Below, one piece after another: positions 1-43,500 of a stretch of DNA of 43,500 nucleotides (its first letter is position 1; every line of letters begins with the position of its first letter). The DNA lies in NCBI RefSeq assembly GCF_026151205.1, contig NC_087076.1, positions 15,285,919 to 15,329,418 on the forward strand. The letters run 5' to 3'. Made by a program: the position numbers and the translations under genes. The stretch is from Bolinopsis microptera (lineage: Eukaryota > Ctenophora > Tentaculata > Lobata > Bolinopsidae). Below the pieces are notes generated by a model, which was not told the origin of the DNA, did not search any database, and worked only from the letters and a program-made list of their open reading frames with translations.

Positions 1-2334
1 TCCCTTCAAAAGATTCTTTCAGTGATCTTTCACTCTCCCAGTTAGATCACTTCACCCACCCCAGAAAATGGATAATTACATTAGACATTCTTCTCAGTAA
101 TTATGATAACACAATTCGATAACTTGAATGTATGTGATCCTATTCCGTGGCAAATCTATCATTTTCCTGTCACTTTTTTCAATTAAAACTCTTTTCCCCC
201 CCAAGAAAACTCCTAACGTAAAATCTATAATTATAAAAAGCAAACTGGGAATGATTAATCGTGATTATGCCGATAATTGGCCAGTCCTAGAATGCCTAGA
301 TCCTGAATCGTCTTGGTAAGTTAGTTTTAAAGACTGCATATAATTAAGTTGATATACATATTCCTAAAGTACATTTAAATCAAGTTTCAACCCACGTGGT
401 TCCAAGTGATACTTTTTTTCTTCATGCCGTAAAAATGGATAGACTCAATATCTAAATTTAAATTTCTGGTTCTATTTCTGATATTTAAAGATTTTACTAG
501 CCGTAAAGGATTTAAAGAAGGCTTTCCATCAGCCAAAATAAGAGACAATCTTTTCAATAGTGATGATCCAGCGCTAATAACTAAGAAGTTTTGTACATTT
601 TAATATAAATCTAACTCCTGCCTAATCCTAATTTGTTAGATATTCCTGGACAGCTTCCGTTCAAAACCCAAAGCTCAAGCTGAACTTTCAATCTTTCTTT
701 TATAACCAGTTTACGGGAATCCTTCACTTTATGAACACGTACACCTAGTCAATGATGTTGAATTTTGATATTGACTTCGATAATCGGGAATGTTCTACTT
801 CTTTCAAATAATAATTCAAATAAAGCCCAGGACCAGATGCATACACGGAAAAATTTCTCAAAATTGTTCCTAGGATTAGCTTACCTCTTAACATTGCAAT
901 TTTTCGTGGATCTTACAACAGCGTACATTCCACAAGAATGGAAACTTTGCAATGTTGTCCCAATATTTAAGAAAGTAAGAAAAGTGAGGTTGAAAACTAT
1001 AGACCAATAACCCTTACTTGTTTAGTCATGAAAGATTTTTGAGCGCATTTTAAACGTAAACTGCTTTCTTTGACAAGTCCCCTTCTTGATCCCAGCAGCA
1101 TTTTCTAGAGCACAAGTCATCACAACCAATAGGTTGACTTGTGATAGCCAGGCATTGTCTCTTAACGAAAAATTATCAATCATGTGTGTATTTTGATTTT
1201 GCTAAAGGCATTTATTCTGTAAATCATGATATCCTTCTTCATAAGCTAAAGGACTTATATACCATGGATGGTAACACTTCTCAAATTTCTTTACCAATTA
1301 CCTTCAAGCCGTTACCAAAGAGTTTGTTATATGTATGAATTCCATCTACCCCTCAGTTAATTCTGGTGTCCCCCAGGCACTAATCTTGCCCTTACTTTTT
1401 GTATTTTACAATGATATATCCTCTTGGCCTTTCGGATAATACTGATATTGTTTTTTGTATGCCGATGATACAAAAATCGCTAAAAAACATTCATCTTCTG
1501 ATAATTCTAATTATACAAAATGGATATAACGATCTCTCTGACTGGGCACTAAGAAACAAAATGCATTCCATCCAGTCAAAATGGAAGTGCTTATTGTTTT
1601 CAAAAACCATCTTTACCCTCCATTCGCATACAACTTGATGGCTCTCCTCTTGTGTATGTAGATTAGAAAAAGATCTTGGATCGATGTTACTCCAACTAAG
1701 TGGAATATCCCAGTGCCGACAGAATTTTCTACTAAGCCGCCAACAACTTGGTATGGTCAGAAGAGATGGCCAAATTGTCATTGATCAAAACGTCGCCGCG
1801 CTTCCTCTCCCTGGTTCGTAGCCAATTCGAAATTGTTCCATAATCTGCCCCTTTAATAAATCACCTTATGAGAAATTTAAAAGTCTCCAAAAGAGAGCTA
1901 TTTAATATTCTGTCTGAAGAAGTGGCCCAGTTATCCACCTGAGCATTATGTCAAAAAAGTGCAACTTGGTGACCGATCTCCCTTTGTCTCAAATTTTGAC
2001 TTAAGATCTTATTTTTTCCACAAAGTTCTTACAATTTTAATTCCGTATCACGCCCACTAGCTCTCTTTTATCAGGGCACTTTCACGACTAAGACTTGCCA
2101 CCTCACAGTCTGTCTATTGTGTCATCAATTTTACCTAGATAAGTCAGAATTCACACATCAAACAACCCCACCCCCACCACATGTACTCAAATACCCACTG
2201 CAAAATCATTTTTCTACAGAACCATATACTGAGAATGGACCCCTTTTACAGTAAACAGATGTGTCTACTTAGTCGTGTTCAAATCTGAGTCACTAGCATC
2301 TATAAATGTTTAATGGATAGAAACAACAGTCTAG
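1..2334 (+). pseudogene. LINE ORF2 (endonuclease tail and reverse transcriptase), frameshifted copy 1
   Basis: This is the 3' part of a non-LTR retrotransposon polyprotein that nicks the target and copies its own RNA at the nick. The endonuclease end (SDHFPV, about 153-180) is followed by the RT domain: PQEW at 930-942, VPIFKK at 953-973, FDFAK..SVNHDILLHKL at 1191-1250 (readable in frame), the PQGS block near 1361-1380 and the catalytic YADD at 1458-1469. The thumb-like C-terminal part ends with a block matching LWNGLP near 2221-2250 and a TAG at 2332-2334. Many one-base indels break the frame; the other copies show different breaks, so I read them mainly as sequence error. The clade looks CR1/L2-like from the esterase-EN-RT layout and the LWN-LP ending; this is moderately sure. 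Confidence 0.88.
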
Positions 2335-2835
2335 CCTAGTCTCTTTGCTCCCCATATTATTATTATTATTTGTTTTATTAATGTTTTTTATCTACCTTCC
2401 TATAAGTCAACATCATATCACACTCACCGCACACCTCCAAACATTAATACCATTTCAACCTGTATCTATGTATCTGGAATTTTGACGTATTAAATACAAA
2501 TTTTACTCTATATCCACAGTTATTCACCATGATTTGTTTGTATAAATAGTTTTTCATAAATTTTTGATTTAAGGTTTCAGTAAATGTCAATTTAATGCGA
2601 CCATATTCACTATTGTTTAACCGTTTAGGTGCCAATTCATATTACAGAGGGTGCTATATTTTGAACGAGTCTATTTTATATTCATCTAATGCTGTTACTC
2701 TGTAAAATTTAAAGTATTTTAATAAAAAAAATAAAAATAAACTCAAACTTTAACTAAATCAAAAACTAAATCAGACGAAACGAAACGAAATAGGAAACGA
2801 AAAAATACAAAACAAAACATAATTAAATAAAATTC
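2335..2835. other. AT-rich stretch between the LINE stop and the Penelope-like stop, copy 1
   Basis: No coding was seen. An (ATT)n run at about 2355-2370 follows the LINE stop and may be its short-repeat 3' tail. From about 2700 there are A-rich tracts, with an AAACG tandem near 2775-2800. The rest is probably the 3' untranslated part of the Penelope-like element on the minus strand. The exact border between the two elements is not visible. Confidence 0.6.
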
Positions 2836-3385
2836 CTAAAAGCAGTTTTCATCAGCAAAAACTTTTGTGTGCCTACATTTCCATTATGAGTTCCCTCCTC
2901 CTATTTAATAAGAATGCCATCTTTATTTAAAATATTAAATTTTTCATAAGCAAGATACAATCTTTCGTACCCCCCTTGTACGATGCGATGTTGATTATTT
3001 TCCAAGATATTTAAATGGTGGTTTGTTTATCTTTCAACCTCCCATATTTTCTTAGATAGCTCCGTCTGATTTTCGTACTTCTCGATTGAAAGAGCTTTGT
3101 GTGAACTGAAACGTCTTAAAATTTTCAGTAAGCCCAATATATTTTGTGCTCCTTTCTTTACATTTTCACTCAATAGTTGCTTCTATATCCTCTGCTTCCA
3201 GGCAATGTCCGTTCATGGGCACATTCCGCTTTCTTCTCAATTGCATCGTTTTTCGATTTAATTGTATTCTTTTCTGAGCCTGTGTCCCTGGTGCTCGCTA
3301 AGATGGATCCTACTTGGGGTGGCAACTGTATGATAGCTTAATTGTTTTCTGTTGAACATTTTGTGAAATTGTTCCTCTTGAAGTG
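2836..3385 (-). pseudogene. Penelope-like GIY-YIG C-terminal fragment, copy 1
   Basis: Read on the minus strand from turn A1, this is the end of a Penelope-like element protein, whose GIY-YIG nuclease makes the nick used for insertion. The complements of CPLNGQC (about 3202-3232), YIGLT (3123-3152) and CHLCLTEKL (2934-2963) are present, and the stop complement CTA is at 2836-2838. No Penelope-type RT lies upstream; the element is cut at the A turn. Indels break the frame. Confidence 0.75.
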
Positions 3386-3523
3386 CTTGTCTAGTAATCG
3401 AGAAACTCTTGCCTTTTTGTTGTTACATTTCAGAAAGCCGAAATGTCCCACAGAACGACAGTATCTGCCGAACAGCAGGGTATAATATGAACCAACTATT
3501 GCAGGGAAAAATGTAAAAGTAGA
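3386..3523 (+). other. Asymmetric centre of turn A1
   Basis: This is the unpaired segment between the two inverted arms. The first ~44 nt continue the left Penelope-like copy further upstream on the minus strand (compared across copies, the frame reads NKHRQELPALL). From about 3429 a ~97-nt extra plus-strand piece repeats the CRKPEMCPLNGQC...ENEKKEH part of the GIY-YIG region. It then jumps back at a shared GCAC to join the right-hand copy. Confidence 0.75.
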
Positions 3524-4079
3524 CACTTTCCCCAGAGACAACCAATTTCACAAAATTTCAAACAGAAACACAATCAACTATCATAACAGTTGCCTACCCA
3601 ACTAGGATACATCATAGCGAGCACCATACACAAGCTCAGAAGAACCTACAATTTAAACGAAAACCAATTGCAGAAAGCCAGAAATGTCCCCACAGACAGC
3701 GGACAATGCCTGAAGGCACAGTGAATATGAAGCAACTATTCAGTGAAAATGAAAAGAAAGAGCCCAAATATATTGGGCTTACTGAAAACACTTTAAGACC
3801 GTTTCGGTTCACACACAAGCTCTTTCAAACCGAAACTACAATTCAACGACTAATCTAAGAAAATATGGGGAGTTGAAAATAAAACAACACATATAAAAGA
3901 ATCTTGAAAATAATCGAAACCATGCCATTTCCGTACAAGGGGAACGAAAATTGTCATCTCTGCCTTACTGAAAAACTTTTATAAATTTTAAAATAAAGAT
4001 GGCAATTCTATTAAATAGGAGGAGGAACTCATAAGTAAATGTATGCACACCACAAGTTTATGCTGAAGAAATGCTTTAG
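3524..4079 (+). pseudogene. Penelope-like GIY-YIG C-terminal fragment, copy 2
   Basis: About 185 codons diverging from turn A1. Comparing copies gives, in order: NRNTIKLSYSCLPN; CNCRKPEMCPLNGQC (about 3655-3700), a cysteine-rich linker; VIYEATI; YIGLTENTFKTRF (3767-3800), the GIY-YIG core with its arginine; TELSKKIWELKD; CHLCLTEKL (3954-3978), which follows a G run that is 4 long here but 6 on the opposite strand in other copies (6 restores the frame); and ISKCRHTNKF (4028-4060). TAG is at 4077-4079. The order and spacing match the GIY-YIG ends of Penelope-like elements. The RT part is absent. Confidence 0.8.
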
Positions 4080-4603
4080 GGATATAATTTAATTTTTCTT
4101 TTTGTTCTTGTATTTCATTTCGTTTCAATTTCGTTTACGTTGTCGTTTGATTTTTGTTTTTGTTTAGTTAAGATTAGTAATTTTATTTTTTTTTAAAATA
4201 CTTTCCAAATTTACAGAGTACACAATAGATTGAATAAAAAATAGAATCGTTCAAAATACGCCCCATCTGTAAAAATATGATGGCACCCAAACACGTATAC
4301 ACATAGTGAACTATGTCCGCAGTAACTTGACCCATTACAACATCGACTTAATCTAAATCCAAAAATTTATGGAAAAACTATTTAATACAACAAATCCATG
4401 GTGGAAATAACTGTGGATATAAGTCAAAAAGTTTATTTCAATACGTCAAATTCCAGTACATAGATACAGGTCTGAAATGGTCCATTAATGTTAAGAAGGT
4501 TTGCGGTGAAGTGTGATATGATGTTGAAGTAATTAGGAAGGTATTTAAAAATAAAAATTAATAAAACAAAAAATAATAATAATATGGGGACCAAGAGACT
4601 AGG
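4080..4603. other. AT-rich untranslated stretch, copy 2
   Basis: T- and A-rich, with CGTTT-type tandems after the GIY-YIG stop and a 16-nt near-palindrome ACATAGTGAACTATGT at 4301-4316. An (AAT)n run at about 4571-4585 sits next to the LINE stop. No coding was seen. Confidence 0.6.
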
Positions 4604-7535
4604 CTAACTGTTGTTTTCACTATCCAATAAACTTTTCCATAGCTGATGCTTAAGTGACCTCAGCTTCGAAAAGACTATAGACACAATCTGTCTTTACCAT
4701 AAAGGGAGTCCATTCCACATTATATGGTTTCTGAATAAAGAAAACTGATTTTGCAGTGGCTATTGAGTACATGTGTATGTGGTGAATTCTGACTTAACTT
4801 AGTAAAATTGATGACACAATAGACACGTCGAGGTGGCACGTCTTAGTCGAGAAGTGCCCTGATCAAAAGAAGAAGTGATCAGTGATACATAATTAAATTT
4901 GTTAAAACTTTGTGGAAAAAAATAAGATCTTTCAATCAAACTTTTGAGACAAAGAGAATGTCGACAATCTTGCACTTTTTGACATATTGCTCAGGTGATA
5001 ACTGCGGCCCTCTTCAGACAGAATCCATTTAAAGCTCTCTTTTGGAGACTTCTAATTTATCACTAGTGATTTAATTACAAGCGCCAGATATAACAATTTT
5101 CGATTGCGACGAACCAGGAGAGGTAAAGCGCCCGGCACGTTTTTTCTGTCAATGACAATATGGCCATCTCTTCTTCCATACAAGTTGTTGGCAGGCCTTA
5201 GTATAAAATCCAGTCGCACAGACTATTCCAACTTAGCTTAGAGAACATCGACTCCAAATCTTTTTCTAACTCTACATACACTAGAAGACCATCAAGATTG
5301 TATGGCGAATGAGAGATAAAGATGTTTTCCGAAAACAATAAGCACTTTACATTTGCTGATGGAATCGCAATTTTTATCTTAGATGCCGCATCAGAGAGCT
5401 AGTCTATATCCATTTTGTAAATTATATTATCAGAAGATGAATGTATTTACGCCATATTTTTGAAATCTCGGCATACAAACCAATATCAGTATTATCCGAA
5501 AGCCAAGAGGAATATCATTGATAAACACTACAAAAGTAAGACCAAGAATAGAGCCCTGAGGACACCAGAATTAACTTGAGAGGGGTAGCTGACAACTCAT
5601 TACCAATAACCCTCTTTGGTAACAGGCCTTGAAGGTAAATTGGTAAAAATTTGAAAATGACATCATTGTTATATAATACCCTTAGCTTATGAAGAAGACA
5701 TCATGATTTTCAGAATCAAATGCCTAGCAAAAATCAAAATACAACAACAGATTGATATGTTTCGTTAAAACAATGCCAGGGCTATCACAAAAGCAACCAT
5801 ATTGGTTGTGCATGACTTGTGCAATAGAAAACCATGCCTGCCTGGATCAAAAGGGTACTTTCAAAGAAAGCATTTACGTAACAATGCGGCTCAAAAACTT
5901 TCATGACAAACAAGAAAGGGATATAGTCTATAGTTTTCAACCATTCAACCCCTCACTTTTCTTACATTCTTAAATATGTACAACATTTGCAAGTTTCCAT
6001 TCTTGTGAATGTAGCCGCTGTTTAAGATCCACACGAAAAATGCATGTTAGAGGGTAAGCTAAACTACGTACAATTTTTTGAGAATTTAAACCGTGTATGC
6101 CATCTGGTCCCTGGGGCTATATTTGAATAATATTTGAAAGAAGCTTACGGAACATCCGATGATCGAAGTCAATATCAAAATAACAAAATTGACATAGGAG
6201 ATATCAGGTCATAAAGTGAAGATCCGACGAACAGTGACAAAAAGAAAAATTGAAAAGTTCAGCTTGAGCTTTGGTTTGAAACCGAACTGACCAAAAAAAC
6301 TAACACAATTAGGAATACGGCAGGATTTAGATTTAGTTCATAACATGTTGACCTAAACCTTCTTATTAATTAGCGCTGGATCATCACTAAGAAAAGATTG
6401 TCTTCTATTTTGGCTGATGAAAGCCTACTTTAAAATCTTTCGCTAGTACAAACTTTAACTCATCAGAAATAGAACCAGAGATTTTAAATTAGTTCTGAGT
6501 CCTATCTTCCTTTATACGCATGAAGAAAAAATTCACTTCGAAACCACGGGGATTAAAAATCTGATTAAAAGTTACTTTAGAAAATGTAATCAACTAAATT
6601 CATAATGCAGTCTTTAACTAACTTCCAAAGACGAATCAGTATCTAGGCATTCTAGGACTTGCCAAATAATCGAGCATAATTCAACGATTAATCAGTCCCA
6701 GTTTGCTTTCTTATAATATATATTTACGTTTAGGAGTTTTCTTGCGGGAAAAGGAGCTTTAATTGAAAATGACCGGGAGGAAAATGAACAGATTGCACAC
6801 GAATGAAGATCACAGACATTATCAAGTTATCGATTGTGTTATCATAATTACTGAAATAATGTCCTAATGTATACCTTACTATTTATGGGTGGGAGATGTA
6901 TCAACCTGGAGATAGAAAGATCACTGAGAAAGAATCTATGAAGTATTGCTCAATAGTTACGGTACGATGAAGATAGCCAGTCTAGTCTGGGGGAGATAAA
7001 TCACCAATAACATAGATTTTAGGGGGATTCTTGTTTGGAAACAAGCTTGCGAATAAACTAACTATGACAACATGATTAGGTAACCCAGAGTTCTACTCTA
7101 TAACAAGTACAGATTACAATACCTCTTTGTAGTAAAAGCAATTTAATAACGGCAACATTTCTGCACCTCGCTAACTGGTAGTCGGGTTGTAGTGGCAATC
7201 GAGATCAGCCCGAACAGCCAAAAGAACACCACCTCCATTTTCCCTAAACATTTTGGGATATAAGGTCTGAGGATGAGTCTTTCTTCGTGCGGTCATTGCG
7301 AAGATTTCAAATTGAGAATAAGGCGAAAGATTTCGTTGCTAGAATAGATTTTTTAGCAAGTCTCATTTAGGGGCAATTTATGTCAGGCTGCTCTATGTTT
7401 AGCAAAGGATTGAAGTTCGGAAATCTATTACCACAAGAAGGGATGGGAGGAAGCTATAGGTTATGAAAGGAATAAGAACCATGGTACATTTTGGAAGAGT
7501 ATAGATAAGGGAGTTGGGGACCTGATTAAGCATGA
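4604..7535 (-). pseudogene. LINE ORF2 (APE endonuclease and reverse transcriptase), frameshifted copy 2
   Basis: Minus-strand motif complements, 5' to 3' of the gene: NPGP at 7511-7534, NETWL at 7345-7372 (catalytic Glu of the APE family), GDFN at 7001-7013, SDHF at 6781-6796, PQEW at 5998-6012, FDFAK at 5725-5748, PQGS at 5551-5566, YADD at 5455-5476, LWNGLP at 4709-4727, and the stop complement CTA at 4604-4606. The domain order EN then RT with no RNase H seen, about 975 codons, is usual for this kind of LINE. The upstream start is uncertain; I set the border at the NPGP block. Confidence 0.88.
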
Positions 7536-8161
7536 GAAGGATTAACAAGAGTAAACAAAAGAAAGTTAAGGAGGAAAACCAAAGAATGAATAAAGATACT
7601 AACGCCTGAGGCGGCTGGAATTCTACCTCTATTCATCTTACCAGGGAGAAGAACATTTCTATAAACCATGAGAGATAATTACAAAGAAAAGTATATGTGG
7701 AGCAAGCAAGAAATGTATAAGATAACGTTTGCTGTCGAAGGAGTAGAGAGAATGAATATAAGATCTAGGGGAAAACGGTGTTTCAATGGACCTAGTCGTG
7801 GAGAGAAGAAATGGAGAAGTAAGTCATGATGAGAGGAATAGAATAGAACATATGATTATGATAATTGTAGTTGAATTGTGTGGGGTGCCATGGAGAAATT
7901 AAATGTTTAAATTTTGTTAGTATAAACGTTTGATATGTATATGTCATTTCTTGACTGTGTAAGGCCTTTTGCATGCAAAAAGACCTATTTCTAAGTCAAA
8001 ACGATTCATTTCTAACATATGGAAAAATGGGCAGTGACCGAATGTACCTGAAATAGGAGGGCATAAAATTGAGAAAAAGATTAAATCGAGAGAGTTTTTG
8101 AGTTTTAATTTTAGGCGCAACGTCTTAATCAAAATAGTAAATGAAAGAAAAAGATCAAAGA
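7536..8161. other. Linker between the LINE esterase ORF1 and ORF2, copy 2
   Basis: About 630 bp separate the esterase stop from the NPGP block. On the minus strand a hydrophobic run just before NPGP (FLLITLVNPSMLNPGP when copies are compared) probably belongs to the start of ORF2. The rest gives no family I recognise. Confidence 0.5.
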
Positions 8162-8725
8162 TTAAATTCCCAGAAGATTATTTTACAACCCTGTCAAAAA
8201 CTGTGTACCGTTTACAACCAACCTTAAGCCAAGTGGAACAGTAAACCTACTCCTCTCATGTTGAGATGAAAGCCAATCAATGTATAGAAGTTCATTACAT
8301 GATCTAAAGTCTCGATAAAAAGTTTGAGAAACAGTCAGGAACACGCAATTATTCTTTAGGCATAAGTCTTTAGTTAATTGTTAAAATCTAGAACATTCTT
8401 TGCTAGTAGGAATAAAAACACTTAATAGGAAACAACAATTGACAATATAAAAAATGCAGCGAAATAACTGCTTAGTGTGGCAATTAATTCAGTAAGATAC
8501 TTCCTAAGGAACTGAACCCCATACTTAGAACATCTGCTCGTTTAAAGGCATTAGTACCAACAAACAATATAATTTTTTTCAATATCGTCAGCATCTGCAA
8601 TCTGCATGAGTTTTAATGTAAAATATGAAGGAAGCTTGTAAGGAAAACATGGATATATTATTTAAATAGTATTCTGACACTGAGATTGCATTTGCATGAA
8701 ACTCTGAGATTTGTAGACATCGTCG
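8162..8725 (-). pseudogene. SGNH/GDSL esterase ORF1 remnant of the LINE, copy 2
   Basis: Minus-strand complements of GTNDI (8546-8566) and DWLHLN (8262-8280), with the stop complement at 8162. These are the Gly-x-Asn-Asp block and the catalytic Asp-His block of SGNH hydrolases, which occur in ORF1 proteins of CR1/L2-type LINEs. The first block with the catalytic Ser (GDS) is missing: recognisable coding stops at the TA tract, so the gene is truncated at its 5' end. Confidence 0.75.
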
Positions 8726-8727
8726 TT

Positions 8728-8815
8728 TTATTATAATATATATATATATATATATATAAAATATTAATATGTATATTATATAAAATATATATATATCTAG
8801 TATTATATTTATTAA
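8728..8815. repeat. (TA)n tract left of B1
   Basis: TA/ATA-rich simple sequence with imperfect interruptions. A mirrored tract lies at 9786-9858 on the other side of the foldback. Confidence 0.85.
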
Positions 8816-9785
8816 ACTTGACGAATTATCCCCGCAACGGACATAGAAGAAAAAACACCGAAATCGACCTCAAAATACCCTCTGTGATGCCAAACCCAGC
8901 TCCACGCAAATGAGTTGAAACCTCGCCATTTTTAGCAGGGTGTAAAAAAGGATCGAAAAGGCCTATAGCCTTCTTAAATTTTTGATTTGCTTTAGATTTT
9001 TTTATAATTAACGGTCGTAAGTGAGGTAAATAATCGTTAGAATAATGGCGTTTATTTAAGCAAAGGTTACTGCGCTGTTGCGAACAACGTTAAAAATGCA
9101 CGTGCGCGGCAACCATCAGAATACAACAGCCGTTGATTATGTTTGTTTTGTATGCACGTCATAATTTCAAAACTAGCTCACATTTCACGCTCACCATGAC
9201 TTCATATAACTTTGTTGTGAATGGTATATTTGAAGCGGTAAAAAGTAATCGATTTGGGAAACCGAACTACTAACAACGCTGTCGACATCATGGAAATTTA
9301 CTCTAACCAATGGCGTACAGCGTTGTTAGTATTCTATTCCCAAAACGATACTTTTTACCGCATCAAAAATACCAATCACAAACAAAGTTATAAAAGTCCT
9401 AGCGTGAGCGTAACATGTGAGCTAGTTTTGAAATTATGACGTAGCATACAGCCTAACAACGCGCGTTGTTAATCTGTGGTTTGCCGCGCACGTGCTTTTA
9501 ACGTTGCTACGCACAGCGCAGTAAAACCTTTGCTAATAACGCCATTTCTTCTAACGATTTATTTAACCTCACACCGACGATTAATTATAAAAATCTAAAG
9601 CCTAAATCAAAATTCAAAGAACTATAGCCTATCCTATCCTTTCCTACAACCCTGCAAAAAATGGCGAGGTTTCAACTCCATTTGCGAGCTGGTTTGGCAT
9701 CACCAGAGGGTCGATTGAGTCGATTTTCGGTGTTTATTTCTTTCTTATGTCCCCGTTTGCCCGGGGAAATTCTCAATTTAGAAAT
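8816..9785. mobile_element. Foldback (MITE-like) inverted repeat centred on turn B1
   Basis: Two ~470-bp arms read as reverse complements, with the inner stem CTAACAACGCTGTCG at 9270-9284 answered by 9314-9329 around a ~29-nt loop (9285-9313). The outer sequence next to each TA tract holds a GC-richer CCCCGTTGCCGGGG-type block. The arms contain further short palindromes, such as TAACAACGCGCGTTGTTA at 9454-9471. There is no coding I can support. It resembles a non-autonomous foldback transposon sitting between TA tracts; no target duplication can be defined because the flanks are mirrored too. Confidence 0.6.
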
Positions 9786-9858
9786 CTAATAAATATATCT
9801 ATAATATATTATATATATACATATATTATATATATAATCAATATATATATATATATAA
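9786..9858. repeat. (TA)n tract right of B1
   Basis: Imperfect TA repeats directly before the first recognisable esterase codons. The length differs from its mirror at 8728-8815, as expected for slippage or read error. Confidence 0.85.
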
Positions 9859-9861
9859 TGA

Positions 9862-10430
9862 AAACACGATTTCCTACAAACTCAGAGTTTCATGCAAAAG
9901 TGCAATCATCAGTGTCAGATAACTTATTAAGAATAATAAATCCATGTTTTTCCTTACAACTCCTTCATCATTTACATAAAACTCATGCAGCCTGCAGAAG
10001 CTGACGAATTGAAAAAATTAATATTGAGTGTTGGTACTAATGACATTAACATTCTAAGTATGGGGTTCAGTCCTTTAGGAAGTATCTTTCCTGAATTAAT
10101 TGACACCAACAAAGCAGATATTTCCCGCTGCAATTATAATAGTCCAATGTTGCTTCCTTATTAAGTGTTTATATACCTACAATAGCAAAGAATGTTCTGA
10201 TTTTTAACAATCCTACTTAAGACTTATGCCTAAAGAATAAATGCTTGTTCCTAGACTGTTTTTCTCAACTTTTAAACTCGAGACCTTTAGATCATGTAAA
10301 TGAACTTCTATACCATAGATTGGCATCATCTCAACAATGAGAGGAGTAGGTTTACTGTCCACATTGGCTTATTTTTGTTGTAAACGAACCACAGTTTTGA
10401 CAGTGTTGTAAATACTCTTCGGGCATTTAA
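9862..10430 (+). pseudogene. SGNH/GDSL esterase ORF1 remnant of the LINE, copy 3
   Basis: About 190 codons. Sequence leading into GTNDI sits at 10032-10046 and DWLHLN at 10314-10340, followed by MRGVGLLSTW-like residues, and the stop follows GGGCATTTAA at 10421-10430. Between the motifs, hydrophobic beta-strand-like runs (AAIIIVQCCLP) fit the SGNH fold. The GDS serine block is absent upstream. In LINE ORF1 proteins this domain is thought to help in RNA or membrane handling; its role here is unknown. Confidence 0.78.
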
Positions 10431-11075
10431 ATCTTTGATCTTTTCTATTCATTAATATTTTATTAAGACGTTGCGCCTAAAATAAAACTCAAACTAATCT
10501 CTGATTTAATCTTTTCTCAATTTTATGCCTCCTATATCAGGTTACATTCGGTCACTGCCCAATTTTCCATATGGTTGAGACAATGAATCGTTAGACTTAG
10601 AAATAGTTCTTTTTTGCATGCAAAAGGCCTCGTACACCAGGTCAAGAAATGCACTATATACATATCAACACGGTATACCTAACAAAATTTACACATTTAA
10701 TTCTCCCATGCACCCCCACACATAACTACAATTATCATAATCATATGTTTCTCCTTCTATTCCTCTCATCAAGACTTACCTCCTCCAATTCTTCCTCTCC
10801 CACGACTAGTTCCCATGAACACCGTAATCCCCCTAGATTCTAATATTCATTCTGCTCTACCCTTGACAGCCCACGATACATTATACCATTTCTTGCTTGC
10901 TCCCACATTCAAACTCTTCTTTGTAACTATCTCCTCATGTTTATAAAAATGTTCTTCTCCCTGGAAAGATGAACTAGATCAAGTATTCCAGCCGCCTCAG
11001 GCTTCCTAGTATCATTATTCATTCTTTGGGTATTTCTCTCTTACCTTTTCTTTTGAATATCTCTTGTTTAATCCT
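10431..11075. other. Linker between esterase ORF1 and ORF2, copy 3
   Basis: It holds a CA/CTT-rich stretch, a TTGCATGCAA-like short palindrome near 10614-10625, and no recognisable gene. The last ~60 bp probably encode the hydrophobic leader before NPGP. Confidence 0.5.
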
Positions 11076-20452: not shown

Positions 20453-20458
20453 TTTTCA

Positions 20459-21587: not shown

Positions 21588-21588
21588 G

Positions 21589-32155: not shown

Positions 32156-32157
32156 TA

Positions 32158-32243: not shown

Positions 32244-33239
32244 TCCTTTGCCGAAATTTCCTCACGCAACGGGGACATAGAAGAAAAAACACCGAATAAT
32301 CGACCTCCAAATACCCTCTGGTGATGCCAAAACCCAGCTCGCAAATGAGTTGAAACCTCCCCATTTTTAGCAGGTTGTAGAAAAAGATAGGAATAGTCTA
32401 TAGCATTCTTAGAATTTTGATTTAGGCTTTTAATTTTTTATAATTAACGTCGGAAGTGAGGTTAAATAATCGTTATAAATAATGGCGTTATTTAACAAAA
32501 GGTTTACTGCCGGTTGCGTAGCACGATAAAATGCACGTGCCGCGAGCAACACAGATTAACAACGCGCGTTTGTTATGCTGATCTACGTCATAATTTCAAA
32601 ACTAGCTCACATTTACGCCACAGCTATGAATTCTTATATAAACTTTGTTTTGTTGATTGGTATTTTTGATGCGGTAAAAAGTATCGTTTGGATCCGCATA
32701 CTAACAACGCTGTCGACATAATGGAATTTATTCTAACAATGGCACAGCGTTGTAGTAAATCGGATTCCCAAAACGAGACTTTTTACCGCATCAAAAATAC
32801 CAATCACAAACTAAATTTATAAGAAGTCATAGCCGAGCGTAAATGTGAGCTAGTTTTTGAATTATGACGAAGCAAACAGCATAACAACGCGCTGTTGTTA
32901 ATCTGAGAGGTTGCACGCGCACGTGCGATTTAAAAACGTTGCTACGCAACAGCCGCAGTAACCCTTTGCCATAAATAACCCTTATTCTTAACGATTATTT
33001 AACATCACTTCCGACTTAATTATAAAAAATCTAAAGCCTAAAATCGCAAAATTCTAAGATGCTATATCCTATTCCTATCCTTTTTCTAAAAAAAAAAAGT
33101 AAAGGTATGGGCACCCTTAAAAAGGCGAGTTTCAAACTCATTTGCGAGCTGGGTTGGCATCACCAAGGGCATTTTGAGGTCCGATTTTTCGTGTTTTTTC
33201 TTCTATGTCCCCCGTTGCCGGGAAATTTTCGTCAAGTGT
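32244..33239. mobile_element. Foldback (MITE-like) inverted repeat centred on turn B3
   Basis: Inner stem CTAACAACGCTGTCG at 32701-32715 answered by 32743-32755, loop 32716-32742. A ~30-base burst at 33088-33119 enlarges the right arm and is absent from the other copies. Confidence 0.6.
33088..33119 (+). other. Single-copy insertion burst in the B3 right arm
   Basis: An A run followed by unrelated bases replaces the short CTACAACCCTGC seen in other copies. It probably comes from the read. Confidence 0.65.
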
Positions 33240-33315
33240 AAAATAAATATAATATATAAATATAAATATATATAAACATAAATATATTTAAATATAATAT
33301 ATATATATATATAGA
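33240..33315. repeat. (TA)n tract right of B3
   Basis: TATAAA- and TA-type repeats between the foldback and the esterase remnant. Confidence 0.85.
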
Positions 33316-33317
33316 AT

Positions 33318-33862
33318 GAAAACATCGATCTACAAACTCAGTTTCAGCAAATGCAATCATCATGTCAGAATAACTTATTAAATTAATAAATCCATGTATT
33401 CCTTACAAGCTCCTTCATCATTTCATAAAACTCATCAGCTGCAGAAGCTAACGATATTGAAAAAAATTATATGAGTGTTTTGGTACTAATGACTTTAAAC
33501 ATTCTACGTATGGGGTTCAGTTCCTAGGAAGTATCTAACTGATTTAATTGACACACTAGCAGTTAAATTTCCGCTGACAATTATAATTGTCCAATTATTT
33601 CTTCAATTAAGTGTTTAATATACCCTACATAGAAAAGAATGATCCTAATTTAACGGAAAACAACTCTACTTAAAGACTTATGCCTACAGAAAAATTGCGT
33701 GTTCCAGACTGTTTCTCAACTTTAACTCGAGACTTTAGATCATGTAAGAACTCTATACTGATTGCTTCATCTCAACATGAAGAGTAGGTTTACTGTCCAC
33801 TGCTTAAGTTTGTTGTAAACGAACACAGTTTACAGGGTTGTAAATAATCTTCTGGGAATTAA
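33318..33862 (+). pseudogene. SGNH/GDSL esterase ORF1 remnant of the LINE, copy 7
   Basis: GTNDI block at 33479-33500, DWLHLN at 33760-33780, stop in GGGAATTAA at 33854-33862. Confidence 0.75.
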
Positions 33863-34495
33863 TCTTTGATCTTTTCATTCATTTTAATATTTTATTAAGA
33901 CGTCCGCCTAAAATTAAAACTCAAACAAAACTCTGATTTATCTTTTTCTCAAATTTATGCTCCTATTTCAGGTACATTCGTCATGCCATTTTTTCCATAT
34001 GTTAGACAATGAATCGTAAAAGGTAGACTTAGAAAATAGGTCATTTTTGCATGCAAAAGGCCTCGTACACAGTCAAGAAATGCCATAACATAATCAACAC
34101 GTTTATACCTAACAAAATTTACACATTAATACTCCATGCACCCGACACATCAACTACAATTATCATAATCATATGTTTCTCTTCTATTCTCTCATCATGA
34201 CTTACGCTTCTCCCATTCTCACTCCACGAACTAGTCCCTGAACACCGTATCCCCTGGGGGGGGGAGATTTCTAAGATTCATTCCTCTCAACTCTTGACAG
34301 CCACGTTATCTATACCATTTCTTGCTTGCTCCAACATCAAACTTTTCTTGTAAATTATCTCCTCATGGTTTATAAGATATGTGCTCTCCTAAGATTGAAT
34401 AGAGTCAAGTATGCCAGCCGCCTCAGCGTCTATATCTTTATTCATTCTTTGAGTTTTTCTCCTCATAACTTTCTTTTGATAACTCTTTTAATCCT
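33863..34495. other. Linker between esterase ORF1 and ORF2, copy 7
   Basis: No gene recognised. Contains a G run at 34256-34264 seen only here. The hydrophobic leader before NPGP begins in the last ~60 bp (HNFLLITLL is readable). Confidence 0.5.
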
Positions 34496-37429
34496 TCTAT
34501 GCTTCATCCAGGTCCCCATACTCCCTATCTATACTCTACCAAAATGTCCAAGTCTTATTCCTTTCAGTAACCTAAGCTCCTCCCACCCCTTCTTGATGTA
34601 ATAAGATTTCCCGAACTTCTATCCTTTGCTAACATAGAGCAGCCTGACATCATTGCCCTAAAATGAGACTTGGCTCAAATAAATCTATTTCTACAACGAA
34701 ATCTTTCCTTCGTCTCAATATTGAAATCTTCCCAATGACCGCACGAGAAATAATCTCCTCAAGATCCTAATAACCTAAAAAAGTTTAGAGAAAAGGAGGT
34801 GGTGTTCTTTTGCTTCGTCTGATTCTCGATGCCACTACAACCCGACACCAGTAGCCTAGTGCAGAAAGCTGCCGTTAAAATAGCTTTTCCTAACAAAGAG
34901 ATTATTGGTAATCTGTAACTTTTATAGAGTAGGAACTCTTGGTACCTAATCATGAATGTCATAGTTATTTATATTCGCAGCTATTTTTCCAAAAAGAATC
35001 CCCCAAAAATCTATGTGTATTTGGTGAATTTTTAATCTCCCCCTTTTAAAAAACAACTGCTACTTCATCCAGATCCCGTACCTATTGACAACCTTCATAG
35101 ATTCTTTCCAAGTGATCTTTCTCTCTCCCAGTTGATCACATCACCCACCATAGAAAGTGTAATACATTAGACATTCTTCCAGTAATTATGATAACACTAT
35201 CGGAGAACTTAATGTCTGTGATCCTCATTCGTGTCAAATCTGAATCATTTACCGTCACTATCAATAAAAGCTCCATTTCCCGCAAGAAACTCCTAAACGT
35301 CAATCTATAATATAAAAAGCAACTGGACATGATTAATCAGGAATTATGCTCGATTCAATGCAAGTCCTAGAATGCCTATATCCCTGATTCGTCTTGGAAG
35401 TTAAGTTAAAGACTGCATTATGAATTAGTTGATATACATATTCCTAAAGTAACTATTAAATCAAGTTTCAACCCCCCGTGGTCGATAGTGAACTTTTTTC
35501 ATGCCGTAAAAAGGAAGGACTCAATCTAAATTTAAAATTTCTGGTTTCATTTCTGATGAGTTAAAGTTTTGTTACAGCCGTAAAGATTTTAAGAGGCCCC
35601 TTTCATCAGCCAAAATAATAGACAATCTTATCAATAGTGATGATCCAGCGCTAATAACTAAGAAGTTTTGGTCACATGTAAGTATAAATCTTAACTCCTG
35701 CCGTATTCCTAATTGTGTTTAGTTATTCCTGGACAGCATTCGGTTCAAACCCAAAGCTCAGCTGACTTTCAATTCTTCTTTCATAACAGTTTTTTTCGGA
35801 TCTTCACTTTATGACACGATATCTCCCTAGTCAATGATTGATTTTGATTTGACTTGATCATCGGAGTTCTAACTTCTTATCAAATATTAATTCAAATCAA
35901 GCCCAGGACCAGATGGCATACACGGTAAAAATCCTCAAAATTTTTCGTAGTTTAGCTTACCCTCTAACATGCATTTTTCGTGGGATCTTACCACAGCGGC
36001 TTACATCCACAAGAATGGAAACTTGCAAATGTGTTCCCAATAATAAGAACGAAGAAAAGTGAGTGAAAACTATAGACCAATATCCTTACTTTGTTAGTCA
36101 TGAAGTTTTTTGAGCGCAATTAGTTAAACGTAAACTGCTTTCTCTGACAAGTACCCTTCTTGATCCCAGCACAATGGTTCTAGAGCACAATCCATCTCAA
36201 CCAATATGGTTTGACTTTTGTGATTAGCCTGGCAATGCGTCTCTTAACGAAAACATTAATCATCATGTTGTGTATTTTTGATTTTGCTAAGCAATTTGAT
36301 TCTGTAAATCATGTTTAACCTTCTTCATAAGCCAAGACCTTATATAACATTGATGGTACTCTTCTCAAATTCTACAAATTACCTTACACAGGCGTTACCA
36401 TAAGAGTGGTTATTGTAATGAGATGTATCTACCCTCTCAGTTAATTCTGGTGTCCCCCCAGGGCTCTATTCTTGTCCCTTACTTTTTGTATGTTATCAAT
36501 GAAAATACCTCTTGGCTTCGGATAAATACTGAATAGTGTTTGTATGCCGATGATACAAAAAATCTGGCGAAAAATACATTCACTTCGAATAATACTAATT
36601 TACAAAGTGGATATAACTAACTCCTCTGAACTGGGCACTAAGAAACAAATCGATTCCAGCCGACAAAATGTAAAGTCATATTGTTTTTCAGAAAACATCT
36701 TATCTCCTCCATTCGCATACAATCATTATGATCTCCTCTTGTGGTATGTAGAGTTAGAAAAAGATCTTGGAGTCGATGGTACTCCTAGCTAAGTTGGCAT
36801 AGTCAGTGCGACAGAATATAGACTAAGCCCTGCCACAAATTGTATGGTCAAATAGATGCATGATTGCATTGATCAGAACTCGCCGCGCTTTAACCTCTCC
36901 CTGTTCTAGCCCAATTCGAAAATGTTCCATAATTCTGGCGCCCATGTAATAAATCAACTAGTGATACATTAGAAAGTTCTCCAAAAGAGAGCTATTAAGA
37001 TGGATTCTGTCTGAGAGGCCTGCAGTTATCCACCTGAGCAATATGTCAAAAGTGCAAGCTTGTCGACAATCACCTTTTGGCTCAAAAGTTTGACCTTGAA
37101 TGATCTTATTTTTTTCCACAAATATCTTAACCATTTTAATTCCTGGTATCACTGCCTCACTATTCTCCTTTATATCATGCACTTCTCGACTAAAGACTTG
37201 CCACCTCGACATTCTGTCATTGTGTCACAATTTTACCTAAGTTAAGTCAGAATTCACACACCACCAATGTACCTCAAATAGCCCACTGGCAAAATCATTT
37301 TTCTACAGAACCCATATACTGTGGAATGACTCCCTTGTACAGGATAGACAGATGTGTCTACTAGTCGTTTCAAAGCGAGTCACTAAGCATCTATGGAAAT
37401 TGTTACTGGATAGTGAAACAACAGTCTAG
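34496..37429 (+). pseudogene. LINE ORF2 (APE endonuclease and reverse transcriptase), frameshifted copy 7
   Basis: NPGP at 34501-34516, NETWL at 34654-34678, GDFN at 35018-35035, SDHF at 35237-35258, PQEW at 36006-36019, FDFAK at 36271-36320, PQGS at 36450-36465, YADD at 36543-36554, LWNGLP at 37311-37330, stop TAG at 37427-37429. A burst at 35042-35060 damages the residues after GDFN. Confidence 0.88.
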
Positions 37430-37941
37430 CTAGTCTCTTGCTCCCCATATTATTATTATTTTTTGTTTTATTAATTTTTTTTATCTACTCTCCAATACAT
37501 TCAACATCATATCAAACTTCACCCCACACCTTCTCACCACAATAATGACCATTCCGCCGTAACTAATGATCTGGAATTTGACGATTAAATACAAATTGTA
37601 CATCATATCCACAGTTTCGTCACCATGGATTTGGTGTGTTATTAAATATTGTTCATAATTTGATTTAGATTAATCCGATGTAATGGGCCAAGTTACTGCG
37701 ACATAATTCACTAGTGTTTACCGTTTGGTGCCCATCATATTTTTACAGATGGGCATATTGAACGAGGCTATTCTATATTCATCTATTTGCTGTACTCTGT
37801 CAAATTGTGAAAAGTTAAATTAATAAAAAAAATAAAATTAACTTAACCTTAACTAAATCAAAAACAAAAATCAAACGAAACGAAACAAATTGAAAACGAA
37901 AATGAAATACAAGAACAAAAACTAAAATTAAAATAAAATTC
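37430..37941. other. AT-rich untranslated stretch, copy 7
   Basis: ATT run at 37449-37460; AAACGAAACGAAAC-type tandem near 37874-37888. No coding was seen. Confidence 0.6.
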
Positions 37942-38533
37942 CTAAAAGCATTCTCAGCATAAACTTGTTGGTGTCCTACATTTACTTATAGTTCCCTGCC
38001 CCCTATTTAATAGATTGCCATCTTTATTAAAAATAATATAAAGTTTTTCAGTAAGGCAGAGATGAACAATCATTCGTAGCCCCCCTTGTAAGGAAAGCAG
38101 TTTGAATATATTTTCCAAGAAATTTTATATGGTGTTTGTTATCATTCAACTCCCATATTTTTCATAGATTAGCTTCCGTCTGATTTCGTAAGTTTTGTTT
38201 TGTTTTTTGTGTTTTCGTTTTTTTTTCTTTCTCGAGTTGAAAGACTTGTGTTAACTGAAACTTCTTAAAGTGTTTGTTCAGTAAGCCCAATATATTTGTG
38301 CTCTTTCTTTCATTTTCCACTGCAAGTTGCTTCATATATCACTGCTGCTTCCAGCATTGTCCGTTCAGTGGCACTTTCCGGCTTTCTGCATTGCACTTTT
38401 CGATTTAATTGGTAGTTCTTTCTAGCTTGTGTCTGTCTCCGCTAAGATGGGATCCTAACGTTTTGTAGCAACTGTAAGATACTTAATTGTGTTTCTGTTG
38501 AACATTTGTGAAATGGTGTCCTCTGGGAAGTGC
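37942..38533 (-). pseudogene. Penelope-like GIY-YIG C-terminal fragment, copy 7
   Basis: Stop complement CTA at 37942-37944, CHLCLTEKL complement near 38042-38072, YIGLT at 38279-38300, CPLNGQC at 38356-38380. A T-rich burst at 38190-38230 lies inside and makes this copy longer than the others. Confidence 0.75.
38190..38230 (+). other. Single-copy T-rich insertion burst
   Basis: About 40 bases of TTTTG/TTT-type sequence split the segment that reads CGTAGCTTCTCGAG elsewhere. Not seen in any other arm. Confidence 0.65.
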
Positions 38534-38672
38534 TTGTCTATAATCGAGGAAGCTCTTGCCTATGTTTGTTGTACAATTTGCAGAAAGCCGGAAATGTGCC
38601 CCCTGAAACGGACTATCCTGGAAGCAGCGTGAATTGAAGCGAACTATTGCAGTGGAAAATTAAAAAAGAAAA
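38534..38672 (+). other. Asymmetric centre of turn A4
   Basis: Left Penelope-like extension at 38534-38578, extra GIY-YIG piece at 38579-38676 joined at GCAC to TTTCCCCAG. Same orientation as A1-A3. Confidence 0.78.
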
Positions 38673-39225
38673 GCACTTTCCCCAGAGGACACCAATTTCA
38701 CAAATGTTAACAGAAACACAATTAACTATCAACAAGTTGCCTACCCAACGTAGGATCCATCTAGCGAGCACCAGAACACCAAGCTCAAAAGAACCTACAA
38801 TTAAAACGAAAAACTAATTGCAGAAAGCCGAAATGTGCCCACTGAACGACAAAGCCTGAAGCAGCCGTGATAATGAAGCAACTATTGCATGGAAAATAAA
38901 AAAAGACACAAAAATATATGGCTTACTGAAAACACATTAAGACCCGTTTCCAGTTCACACACAAGCTCCTTTCAAACTCGAGAAGCTACGAAATCAGACG
39001 ACTAACTAAGAAAATATGGGATTGAAAGCTAACAAACACCATTAAAAAATAACTTGGAAAATAATCAAACATTCTCAGCCCGTACAAGGGGTACAAAGAA
39101 TCTGTCATCTCGCCTTACTGAAAAACTTTATATTATTTTAAATAAAGAGCAATCTATTAAAATAGAGGAGAACTCATAAGTAAATGTAGCACACCAACAA
39201 GTTTATGCTGAAGAAATGCTTTTAG
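38673..39225 (+). pseudogene. Penelope-like GIY-YIG C-terminal fragment, copy 8
   Basis: CPLNG at 38833-38860, damaged YIGLT at 38908-38935, CHLCLTEKL near 39105-39130, KCRHTNKF near 39183-39205, TAG at 39223-39225. Confidence 0.75.
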
Positions 39226-39737
39226 AATTTTATTTAATTTATAGTTTTTGTTCTTGATTTCCTTTTCGTCATTTCGTTTTCGTATCGTTTGGATTTGTTT
39301 TTGATTTATTAAGTTAAGTTACTTTATTTTTTTTATTAAATACTTTTCAATTTTACAGAGTAACAGCAATAGATGAATATAAAAAAAGAATCGTGCAAAA
39401 ATATCGCCCCCATCTGTACCAATATATGGTCACCAAACACGGTAAAACACATAGTGAACTATGTCCGCAGTTACTTGGACCATTAACATCGAATAATCTA
39501 AATCCGAAAAATTTATAAAAACTATTTATACCAAACAATCCATGGTGAATAACTTTGGATATAATCAAAATTTGTATTCAATACGGCAAATTCCAGATAC
39601 ATTAGATACAGGTCTGAAATGGTCATTAATTGTGAGAAGGTGTGCGGTGAAGTGTGATATGATGTTGAAAGTATGGAAGGTAGATAAAAAAAATTATAAA
39701 ACAAAAATAATAATAATAGGGTAGCAAATAGACTAGC
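39226..39737. other. AT-rich untranslated stretch, copy 8
   Basis: Near-palindrome ACATAGTGAACTATGT at about 39449-39464; (AAT)n near 39708-39717. No coding was seen. Confidence 0.6.
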
Positions 39738-42695
39738 CTAGACTGTTGTTTCAACTATCCAATAAACATTCATGAGCTTAGTGACCTCAGCTTGAAAAGA
39801 CTAGTAACACAATCCTGTCTACCTGTAAAGGATCCATTCCACATATATGGGTTCTGTAGAAAAATGATTTTTGCCATGGATTATTTGAGGTACATGTTGT
39901 TTGTGAATTCTGACTTACTTAGGTAAAAATGATGACACAATAGACAGACTGTCGAGTGGAACGCTTAGTCGAGAATGCCCTGATATAAAGAGAGATAGTG
40001 AGATCAGTATACAGGAATTAAAATTGTAAAAACTTTTGGGGAAAAAAATAAGATCAATTCAATCAAACTTTTGAGACAAAGGGAAGAATTCGACCAAAGC
40101 CTTGCACTTTTTGACATATTGCTCATGTGGATACTTGCGGCCCTCTTCAGACAGAATCATTTAATACTCTCTTGAGACTTTCTAATTTTATCACTAAGTA
40201 GTTAATTACAAGGGCGCCAGATTATGAAACATTTTCGAATTGGCTACGAACCAGGGAGAGGAGAAGCGCCCGGCGACGTTTCTAGATCAATGACTAAATA
40301 TTTGTGCCATCTCTTCTGACCCATAACCAAGTTGTTGGCAGCCTTAGTATAAATTCGTCGCACTGACTATTCCAACATAGGCCCTTTAGGATAACATCGA
40401 CTCCAAGAAGCTTTTCTAACTCTACATGCACAAGAGAGTGCCATCAAGATTGTATGCGAATGGAGGAAGATAATGATGTTTTTCCAGAAACATAAGCACT
40501 TAACATTTTGCAGGAAGGAATCGCTTTGTCTTAGTGCCCAGTCAGAGAGATAGTCTATATCCATTTGTAAATTAGTATTATCAGAAGATGAAGTGTATAT
40601 TACGCCAGATTTATGTATCAACGCATACAAAACAATATCAGTAATTATCCGAAAGGCCAAGAGGAAAATCATTGATAAACAATACAAAAAGAAAGGACCC
40701 AGAAAATAGCCCTGGGGACACCAGAATAAACTAGAGGGTAGATGACATCTCATTACCAATAACCAACTCTTTGAAACGGCCTGCAGGTAATTGGTAAGAA
40801 ATTGTGAGAAGTGACCACAATTTTATATAAGGCTTTAGCTTATGAAGAAGGAAACATGATTTACAGAATCAAATGCCTATCAAAATCAAAATCCTCAATC
40901 ATGATTGATAATGTTTTCGTAAGAACAATGCCAGGCTATCCACAAAAGTCAACCATATGTTTGTGCATGACTTGTGTCTCTATAAAACCATGCTGCCTGG
41001 GATCAAGAATGGTACTTGTCAAAGAAGCATGTTTACGATTAACAAGCGCTTCAAAAACTATCATGACTAAACAAGTAAGGGATCCTTGGGTCTATAGTTT
41101 TCAACCTCACTTTTCTTACCTTTCTTAAATAATGGGACAACATTATGCATTTTCCCATTCTTGTGGAATGTACCGCTGTTTGTAAGATCCACGAAAATGC
41201 ATTTTGAGGGTAAGCTAAACCTACGGAACATTTTGAGAATTTTTACCGTTCTGCCATCTGGTCCCTGGCTTTATTTGAATTAATATTTGAAAGAAGCTAC
41301 GAACATCCCGATGATCGAAGTCAATTAACAAATCAGACATCAATTTGACATAAGAATCAGTGTCATAAAAAATTTGAAGGATCCGAAAACTGGTTATAAA
41401 AGAATGAATTGAAAAGTTCAGCTTAGCTTTGGGTTTGAACCGAAGCTGTCCAGAATAACTAACACAATTAGGAATACGGCAGGAGTTTAAGATTTAAACT
41501 TAACATGTACCAAAACTTCTTAGTTATTACGCTGGATCATCACTATTAAAAGATTGTCCTATTTTGGCTGAAGAAAGCCCTTAAAATCTTTACCGGGCTA
41601 GTAACAAACTTAACTCATCAGAAATAGAACAGAAATTTTAAATATAATCTGAGTCTAGACCTTTTACGGCATGAAGAAAAAATTTCACGTACGAACCACG
41701 GGGGTTGAAAACTCTGATTAATATTACTTTTAGAATATGTAAATCAACTAAATTCATAATGCAGTCTTTAACTAACTTCCAAGACGAAATCAGGATCTAG
41801 CAATCTAAGGAGCTTGCCAATTAATCGAGCAATAAATCATCGATTAATCAGTCCCAGTTTCTTTCTTATAAATATAGAATTTACGTTTAGGAAGTTTTTC
41901 ATGCGGAAAAGGAGCTTTTAATTGCAAAAGTGACAGGAAAATGATCCAGAATTGCACCTATAAACACGGAATGAGATCACAGACATTCAAGTTATCGATG
42001 TGTATCATAATTAGCTGAGAAGAATTCGAATGAAATACCACATTTATGGGGGTTGATGTGATCAACTGGTGAGAAGAAAGATCACGAAAGGAATCTATGA
42101 AGGATTGCTCTATAGGATAAGTACTGGTGAAGATAGCCATCGTTGAGGAGATTAAAAACACCAATAACAATAGATTTTAGGGGATTCTTTTTATGAACTA
42201 GCTTGCCGAAATATAACTACCTATGCATCATGATTTAGTAACCCCAAGAGTTCCTACTCTATAACAAGTACAGAAACCAATACTCTCTTTGTTAGGAAAA
42301 GGCAATTTTAACGGCAAGCATTTCTGCACCTAGGATAACTGGTAGCCGGTTGAAGTGGCACGAGATCATACCGAACACCAAAAGAACACCACCTCCATTT
42401 TCCCTAAACTTTATAGGGTAATTAGGATCTTGAGATGATCCTTTCTCGTGCGGTCATTGCGGATGATTTCATATTAGAAGAAGGAAAGATTTCGTTGCTA
42501 GAAATAGATTTTTTGAGCCAAGTCTCATTATGGCAATTGATGTCAGGCGCCTCTATGTTAGCAAATGATTGAAAGTTCGTAATCTTATTAACCATCAAGA
42601 AGGGGATAGGGAGGAGCTTAGGTTACTGAATAGGAATAAGACCTGTACATTTTGGAAAGAGTATAGATAGGATTTGGGACCTGGATTAAGCATAG
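39738..42695 (-). pseudogene. LINE ORF2 (APE endonuclease and reverse transcriptase), frameshifted copy 8
   Basis: Stop complement CTA at 39738-39740, LWNGLP at 39831-39850, YADD at 40610-40630, PQGS at 40707-40724, FDFAK at 40870-40900, PQEW at 41151-41170, SDHF at 41936-41955, GDFN at 42150-42170, NETWL at 42513-42535, NPGP at 42676-42695. The in-frame piece 40367-40759 spans the PQG and DNTNLQMDIDYLSDWALR blocks; 41958-42170 shows the endonuclease stretch EQSFIDSF. Confidence 0.88.
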
Positions 42696-43316
42696 AAGAG
42701 TTAACAAGAGTTATCAAAAGAAAGTTAAGGAGAAAACCCAAAGAATGAATAAAGATACTAACGCCCTTAGCGGCTGGAATACTTTGACCTCTATTCATCT
42801 TACCAGGGAGAAGAACATTTTCTATAAACCGATGAGAGATAATTACAAAGAAAAGTTTGATGTGGAGTCAAGCAAGAAATGGTATAAGATAACTGCTGTC
42901 AAAGAGAGAGGGAATGAATATTAGAATCCTCGGGGAATACGGGTTCATGGACCTAGTCGTGTGAGAGAAGGAATTGGAAAGGTATCATGATGCGAGAATA
43001 GAAAGCAACATATATACTGATAATTGTAGTTGATGTGTGGGGTGCATGGAGAATTAAATGTGTAAATTTTGTTAGGTATAGTAACGTGTTGATATGAATA
43101 TGTCATTTACTTGACTGAGTACGAGGCCTATTGCTGCAAAAGACCTATTCTAAGTCTAAACGATTCATGTCTAACATATGGAAAAATGGACAGTGACCGA
43201 ATGTAACCTGAAATAGAGGCAAAAAATTGAGAAAAAGATTAAATCCGAGATTGTTTTGATTTTAATTTTAGGCGCAACAGTCTTAATCAAAAGATTAAAT
43301 AAAGAAAAGAACAAAG
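42696..43316. other. Linker between esterase ORF1 and ORF2, copy 8
   Basis: No gene recognised. The minus-strand frame 42595-42798 shows the leader SLGFLLNFLLITLVN before the NPGP block. Confidence 0.5.
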
Positions 43317-43500
43317 ATTTAAATTCCCAAGAATATTACCACCCTGTTCAAAACTTTGTTCGTTTCCAACAAACTTAAGCCAAGTGGACAGTAAACCTAC
43401 TCTCACATGTGAGATGAAGCCCCACTCAGGTATAAAGTTCCATTACAAGATTAAAAGGTCCTCGATAAAAATTGAGAAACAGTCTATGAACACGCAATTA
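43317..43500 (-). pseudogene. SGNH/GDSL esterase ORF1 remnant, copy 8, cut by the window end
   Basis: Only the C-terminal part is present: stop complement near 43317 and DWLHLN complement at 43402-43430. GTNDI lies outside. Confidence 0.65.

Follow-up and report, generated by a model that had tools for sequence, protein, structure and literature searches.

An inverted-repeat ladder in the Bolinopsis microptera genome assembly is very probably a raw read inserted by gap closing

We analyzed a ladder of inverted repeats that fills 43,500 nucleotides (the window) of the comb jelly Bolinopsis microptera genome (assembly GCF_026151205.1, contig NC_087076.1, here C5, positions 15,285,919-15,329,418). 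The window is very probably a raw, uncorrected single-molecule read that a gap closer inserted into the scaffold, and it does not reveal what the chromosome holds at this position. This high confidence covers the raw-read and gap-filling part only, not the founder molecule. An earlier note on this DNA described the ladder. That it is the structure of the chromosome here is not supported, and we adopt the raw-read interpretation because of the level and type of the errors in the window, deletions that depend on the strand, identical letters at unrelated places in the assembly, and the register of repeat copies in several of the flanks. The key fact, absent from the earlier note, is that the arms of the ladder are only 79-82% identical to one another, with gaps as frequent as one opening per ~15 bases.

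The geometry of the ladder is regular. Comparison of the window with itself by BLASTN gives direct and inverted diagonals that alternate over its full length: positions 3-31787 match 11665-43500 directly (82.0%), while 3528-15073 and 15218-38534 each match themselves in inverted orientation (81.1% and 80.9%, respectively). This is the self-comparison that the earlier note had proposed as a check, and it bears out that note's description of one ~5.85-kb arm copied in alternating orientation, in a fixed-period ladder rather than a scatter of transposons. The seven turn centers that it listed agree with local mirror alignment to ~20 bases. They are of two alternating kinds, A (3454, 15148, 26853 and 38603) and B (9299, 21016 and 32729), and successive listed centers are 5845, 5849, 5868, 5837, 5876 and 5874 bases apart. 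Nothing unique lies between the arms, so the claim that the window has no leftover single-copy sequence also holds; of the eight arms that the note counted, all are present and only six are complete (5837-5876 bases). In spite of abundant transposon coding sequence, the window has only two open frames of at least 120 codons (standard code). The ladder itself is longer than the window, extending on C5 from ~15,244,855 to 15,360,982, as judged from matches and edges with the intervening bases partly fetched. A run of exactly 5000 N (L003:4001-9000) lies within it, the last N being the base before the window, and by hand arithmetic the phase of the ladder is preserved across this run to ~107 bp.

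The nature of the differences between arms emerges from comparison with clean copies of the repeat that they carry, a long interspersed nuclear element (LINE). Pairwise identity among four clean LINE copies (on C10, C8, C5 and C2), which have ~5.55-5.6 kb in common, is 99.1-99.5%, and each pair aligns with 0-1 gap openings. The same four copies match arm 3 of the window at 90.0-90.5%, with 231-232 gap openings in all four cases. Because the clean copies are nearly gapless among themselves and show ~231 gaps against arm 3, the insertions and deletions are private to the window. All eight arms behave alike against the clean copy L008. With arm limits from self-BLASTN, the identity of the LINE part is 88.6% in arm 1 (partial, running from B to A; 1..3454, plus strand), 89.2% in arm 2 (3455..9299, minus), 90.5% in arm 3, our reference arm (9300..15148, plus), 90.5% in arm 4 (15149..21016, minus), 90.0% in arm 5 (21017..26853, plus), 89.5% in arm 6 (26854..32729, minus), 88.7% in arm 7 (32730..38603, plus) and 90.0% in arm 8 (partial; 38604..43500, minus). 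The overall range is thus 88.6-90.5%, with 2.5-3.4% mismatches, 2.4-2.8% insertion events and 3.3-5.1% deletion events. Since each arm is ~90% identical to a clean copy, an identity of ~81% between arms is expected, and the observed value agrees.

The deletions also depend on the strand. Deletions at the same location are shared between arms of the same orientation 2.1-3.5 times as often as expected, compared with 1.1-1.9 times for arms of opposite orientation. Sharing is greater for the same orientation in all eight arms, the narrowest case being arm 3 (2.14 versus 1.92). In 13 further ladder pieces, the deletion phase is that of the window in 7/7 on C5 and is reversed in 6/6 on C7, C11 and C13; L004a, which overlaps the window, was excluded from this comparison, and the pieces are not all independent, as L012 and L014 carry identical letters. 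Shared deletions linked to orientation are the mark of raw single-molecule reads, and a biological array has no reason to show such a pattern, whereas it is natural for an instrument that reads a single strand.

Beneath these errors the arms are one sequence. Over 3610 alignment columns with enough clean context, there are 19 substitutions relative to L008 that at least 75% of the arms share; all 19 are the majority state in both orientations, and another clean copy, L007, carries 17 of the 19 shared alleles. We considered and rejected a true difference between forward and reverse arms: there is none at the 19 shared substitutions, and 4 of the 8 columns of intermediate frequency lean to one orientation, in a comparison of few sequences.

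Seven places in the assembly, spread over six scaffolds (C1, C5 with two of them, C7, C9, C11 and C13), hold pieces of the ladder, and identical letters recur between unrelated sites. C9 matches window positions 10000-14500 at 100% identity, and the letters at 1-1000, 8500-16000 and 15879-24070 are likewise equal to C9. Pieces on C5 (L039) and C1 (L040) are identical at 3198/3198 bases, others on C5 (L012) and C13 (L014) across 2646 bases, and the C13 piece overlaps one on C7 (L018) by 645 identical bases. At the two C5 places (9.54-9.57 Mb and 15.25-15.28 Mb), matches score equally and are separated by a constant offset in 11/11 listed pairs, an equivalence that comes from scores and offset, not from a comparison of letters. 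Provided that every fill is a single segment of a read, the identical overlapping pieces imply a single ladder read of at least ~62 kb, or of ~139 kb if the 5000 N stand for sequence rather than a gap. The summed length of the fills is ~235 kb at six of the seven places, with C1 outside the sum and the 5000 N included in the C5 figure. The piece on C9 adjoins exon-like sequence of a WDR36-like gene (L011:1268-1709, recognized by eye and without a search), and the paste there may affect a gene model.

The published history of the assembly names a candidate process. The description of the assembly lists PacBio continuous long reads (CLR), wtdbg2, HiRise, TGS-GapCloser and pilon, and reports that 13 chromosome-scale scaffolds carry 97.23% of the bases (PMC10232365). 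In the version analyzed here (264.65 Mb in 232 contigs), 13 contigs of 15-26 Mb each carry 97.51% of the bases, and contig 14 is 198 kb. We infer that the read is PacBio CLR and that the software was TGS-GapCloser. As described, that program picks candidates by their alignment to the flanks and inserts into each gap a segment taken from one long read, leaving the estimated gap size unused (PMC7476103), which is the likeness to the present case. The difference is that the described run corrects its candidates, whereas here the errors persist and one or a few reads fill at least seven places. TGS-GapCloser would have pasted the read because its LINE copies aligned with those of the scaffold flanks.

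We extrapolated the ladder past 12 fill edges and compared it with the LINE copies in the flanks (the C1 edges were outside this set, and six flanks were taken deeper), using a lower limit of 300 bp for a match, which was chosen after the matches had been seen. Five of the 12 edges have a flank match of at least 300 bp, and at four of these five one match is in register with the ladder. The offsets are 5 bp on the low side of C9 (hand arithmetic), 38 bp over 8.8 kb on the low side of C13, 49 bp over 7.3 kb to the right of the C5 ladder, and 109 bp over 9.5 kb to the right of the C5 ladder at 9.57 Mb. The probability that the first three would fit so closely by chance is ~5e-8, a value calculated after the fact and without regard to the misses. 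Such register is what a gap closer would produce by matching a repeat within the read to its counterpart in the flank. Another arrangement, in which LINE sequence right at the edge anchors each fill, was rejected: such sequence is mostly absent, and the fit is by extrapolated register, at four of the five testable edges. Just outside two ladder edges lie tandem duplications of ~380 bp (L012:6536-7255) and ~460 bp (L015:7815-8730), 99.6-99.7% identical, which are perhaps untrimmed overlaps from gap closing.

Several observations weigh against this reading or parts of it. Neither of the two LINE matches at the left C5 edge is in register, nor is the match closest to the right C5 edge. Counted by match rather than by edge, 4/7 matches of at least 300 bp are in register; four smaller ones (81-179 bp) are all out of register, and at 7/12 edges the fetched flank has no LINE match of 300 bp. 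Insertions show little dependence on the strand, and the error profile, with deletions in excess of insertions, differs from the classic PacBio one. A polymerase would also have had to be primed without an adapter, for which a nicked inverted-dimer circle would serve and a closed dumbbell would not. Finally, the program itself is our attribution, and TGS-GapCloser candidates are normally error-corrected beforehand, according to its description (PMC7476103); correction must therefore have been off or have failed here.

What was copied is best seen in arm 3. From turn B inward, the arm consists of a repeat Y (arm positions 3-560; window 9302..9859, plus strand), the outer part of a second repeat X (527-669; 9826..9968, plus), a 5'-truncated LINE (~665-5115; 9964..14414, plus; boundaries by alignment to clean copies) and the remaining, inner part of X (5117-5826; 14416..15125, plus), followed by turn A. 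X lacking the LINE is present at two sites outside the ladder (L022 and L024), and there the sequence of arm position 5117 comes at most two bases after that of 669. Outside the ladder X and Y are present as inverted pairs around a center, X in L022 and L024 and Y in L023, a likeness to foldback-type transposable elements, and we refer to both as putative foldback-type repeats. The inverted Y pair, on C3 (L023:2960-5010), is accompanied by tandem repeats with a 10-bp period, as judged from how far apart the matches lie. TA tracts adjoin the B turns (8732-8812, 9789-9857 and four further such places), and the motif CPLNGQC can be read by eye in the X sequence at turn A in the turn consensus.

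In the clean copy L008, the LINE has two open reading frames (ORFs). Pfam matches place a GDSL-type hydrolase domain in ORF1, which is 460 codons long (L008:5337-6719, minus strand), and both an endonuclease and a reverse transcriptase domain in ORF2, which has 1171 codons. The motifs YADD and GDFN belong to ORF2 and GTNDI to ORF1, within which the 5' truncation of the ladder LINE falls. The family is perhaps young and active, to judge from the 99.1-99.5% identity of its clean copies (L007-L010) and the two open frames of L008. Ahead of the GDSL domain, ORF1 of L008 has a sub-threshold match to a 2OG-Fe(II) oxygenase domain (E 0.0044, 17.8 bits, cut-off 23); an AlkB-like domain in a LINE ORF1, if real, would to our knowledge be unusual.

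The turns are rearrangements of these same repeats. At turn B, the strands of Y overlap by ~10 bases where they join in the clean-copy matches (query 1-59 minus and 50-141 plus), and the unpaired loop is ~28 nt; from these matches and the consensus, the switch lies at 9279..9288, with equivalents at 21016 and 32729. Turn A (window 15126..15222, likewise at 3454, 26853 and 38603) has two template switches in X: forward X passes into a 101-bp reversed piece of X with a 3-base overlap, and this into reversed X with a 5-base overlap. Twenty rows span turn A, representing 13 distinct turns when each copy is counted once (pieces were treated as copies of each other when their letters were identical or their scores and offsets agreed). 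Since all 20 align across the turn, the junction seems to have a single origin and to have been copied afterwards. We rejected a natural element of X or Y with these same centers, because among the scored matches (the best 40 of 45 and the best 40 of 248 candidates) full-length matches to the turn queries come only from ladder pieces, and clean copies cover halves. We likewise do not uphold the idea that turn B arose from a 6-bp inverted repeat already present there. The interrupted inverted repeat is 6 bp in the ladder consensus, and the two clean Y copies of L023 have only the 4 bp CTGT/ACAG, leaving short homology at most; the ladder match may exceed that of the clean copies because fold-back copying itself would lengthen it.

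The arrangement suggests how such a read could arise. A unit of ~11.7 kb, palindromic and consisting of the LINE within X, beside Y, copied back on itself at X and Y, would have been circled many times by the polymerase or by prior replication. The founder would most likely be a small hairpin-capped duplex or its inverted-dimer circle. It may have arisen, whether in the animal or in the tube, through fold-back within Y combined with template switching within X. We regard such a small DNA as the most likely founder and prefer it to a true array. A PacBio insert as long as 139 kb and without an adapter would be out of the ordinary, which favors repeated copying of a small closed molecule over a linear piece of an array.

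That array would be a true chromosomal tandem array of the 11.7-kb palindromic unit elsewhere in the genome, whose unpolished reads were pasted into several gaps; it shares the raw-read part of our interpretation and differs on the founder. We consider it fairly unlikely. It accounts for turns that are junctions inside X and Y without an adapter, for a ladder long enough to hold 13 distinct A turns and, if the array is young, for arms that are identical beneath their errors. However, a long array should give many independent reads at the >70-fold PacBio coverage stated for the assembly (PMC10232365), whereas C7, C13 and both C5 places share letters (C5 9.5 Mb by constant offset only), as do the window, C9 and C1. 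No clean locus that combines Y, X and the LINE is among the scored candidates, at most 40 per search. The turns occur in the ladder only, yet they are as poorly corrected as the remainder, at 85-91% identity to a consensus built partly from themselves. The flanks of the ladder in the assembly resemble the borders of gap fills. An older array, in which the arms have truly drifted 18-21% apart in the genome, would explain the pairwise identity of 79-82%, but we give it practically no credit: the arms carry private indels relative to clean copies that are 99% alike, their shared deletions follow the strand, and one set of 19 substitutions is common to them.

Alternating orientation, a fixed period and raw errors are also what an unsplit multi-pass PacBio read would show, with a linear insert read repeatedly between two unrecognized SMRTbell adapters. 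Here the turns speak against it. No PacBio adapter of the standard sequence was detected in the window or in the consensus of the turns: the scores at the seven turns are 17-21, compared with up to 24 in shuffled sequence, while for 200 simulated adapters at this error level the median score was 75 and the lowest 47. The turns consist instead of rearranged X and Y, and we consider an unsplit read very improbable. Whole-genome amplification could also turn a molecule back on itself, if displaced strands were to fold on themselves at X and at Y, each time letting the polymerase prime anew. With self-priming at the two ends, A and B turns would alternate and no ligase would be needed. Reads from samples amplified by multiple displacement are described as pervasively palindromic, with several inversions per read (PMC13265396). 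In the ladder, by contrast with those reads, the turns are always the same two and their spacing is fixed, and random fold-back would not repeat the same two turns unless one founder was copied. The accessible text of the Bolinopsis microptera paper mentions no amplification (PMC10232365), and this origin seems quite improbable.

Whether the small founder DNA was made in the comb jelly is a separate question. A real extrachromosomal palindrome, either hairpin-capped at ~5.85 kb or an inverted-dimer circle of 11.7 kb, could form in vivo around a LINE copy by a process resembling origin-dependent inverted-repeat amplification (ODIRA); it would then have been caught by a rolling long read, in an animal remote from the customary models. 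In yeast, as described, ODIRA starts from interrupted inverted repeats and leads through a hairpin-capped duplex to an inverted-dimer plasmid (PMC4689423). Such an intermediate, if circled, would yield this ladder. In the present case, by comparison with that account, turn A is a two-step template switch and the clean inverted repeat at turn B is 4 bp. Because the clean Y copies show only a 4-bp inverted repeat, we lower our estimate of an in vivo, ODIRA-like origin and judge it unlikely.

Among the papers listed by searches on missed-adapter or palindromic PacBio reads and on raw gap-fill artifacts, we saw no report of this ladder. Through the pasted pieces, an assembly that is a probable reference genome for deep animal phylogeny acquires spurious inverted repeats and duplications as well as broken transposon genes. 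Studies of palindromes, arrays or LINE divergence in this assembly should mask the ladder pieces. The founder molecule, if real, would offer a rare view of two foldback-type repeats turning a locus into an inverted dimer.

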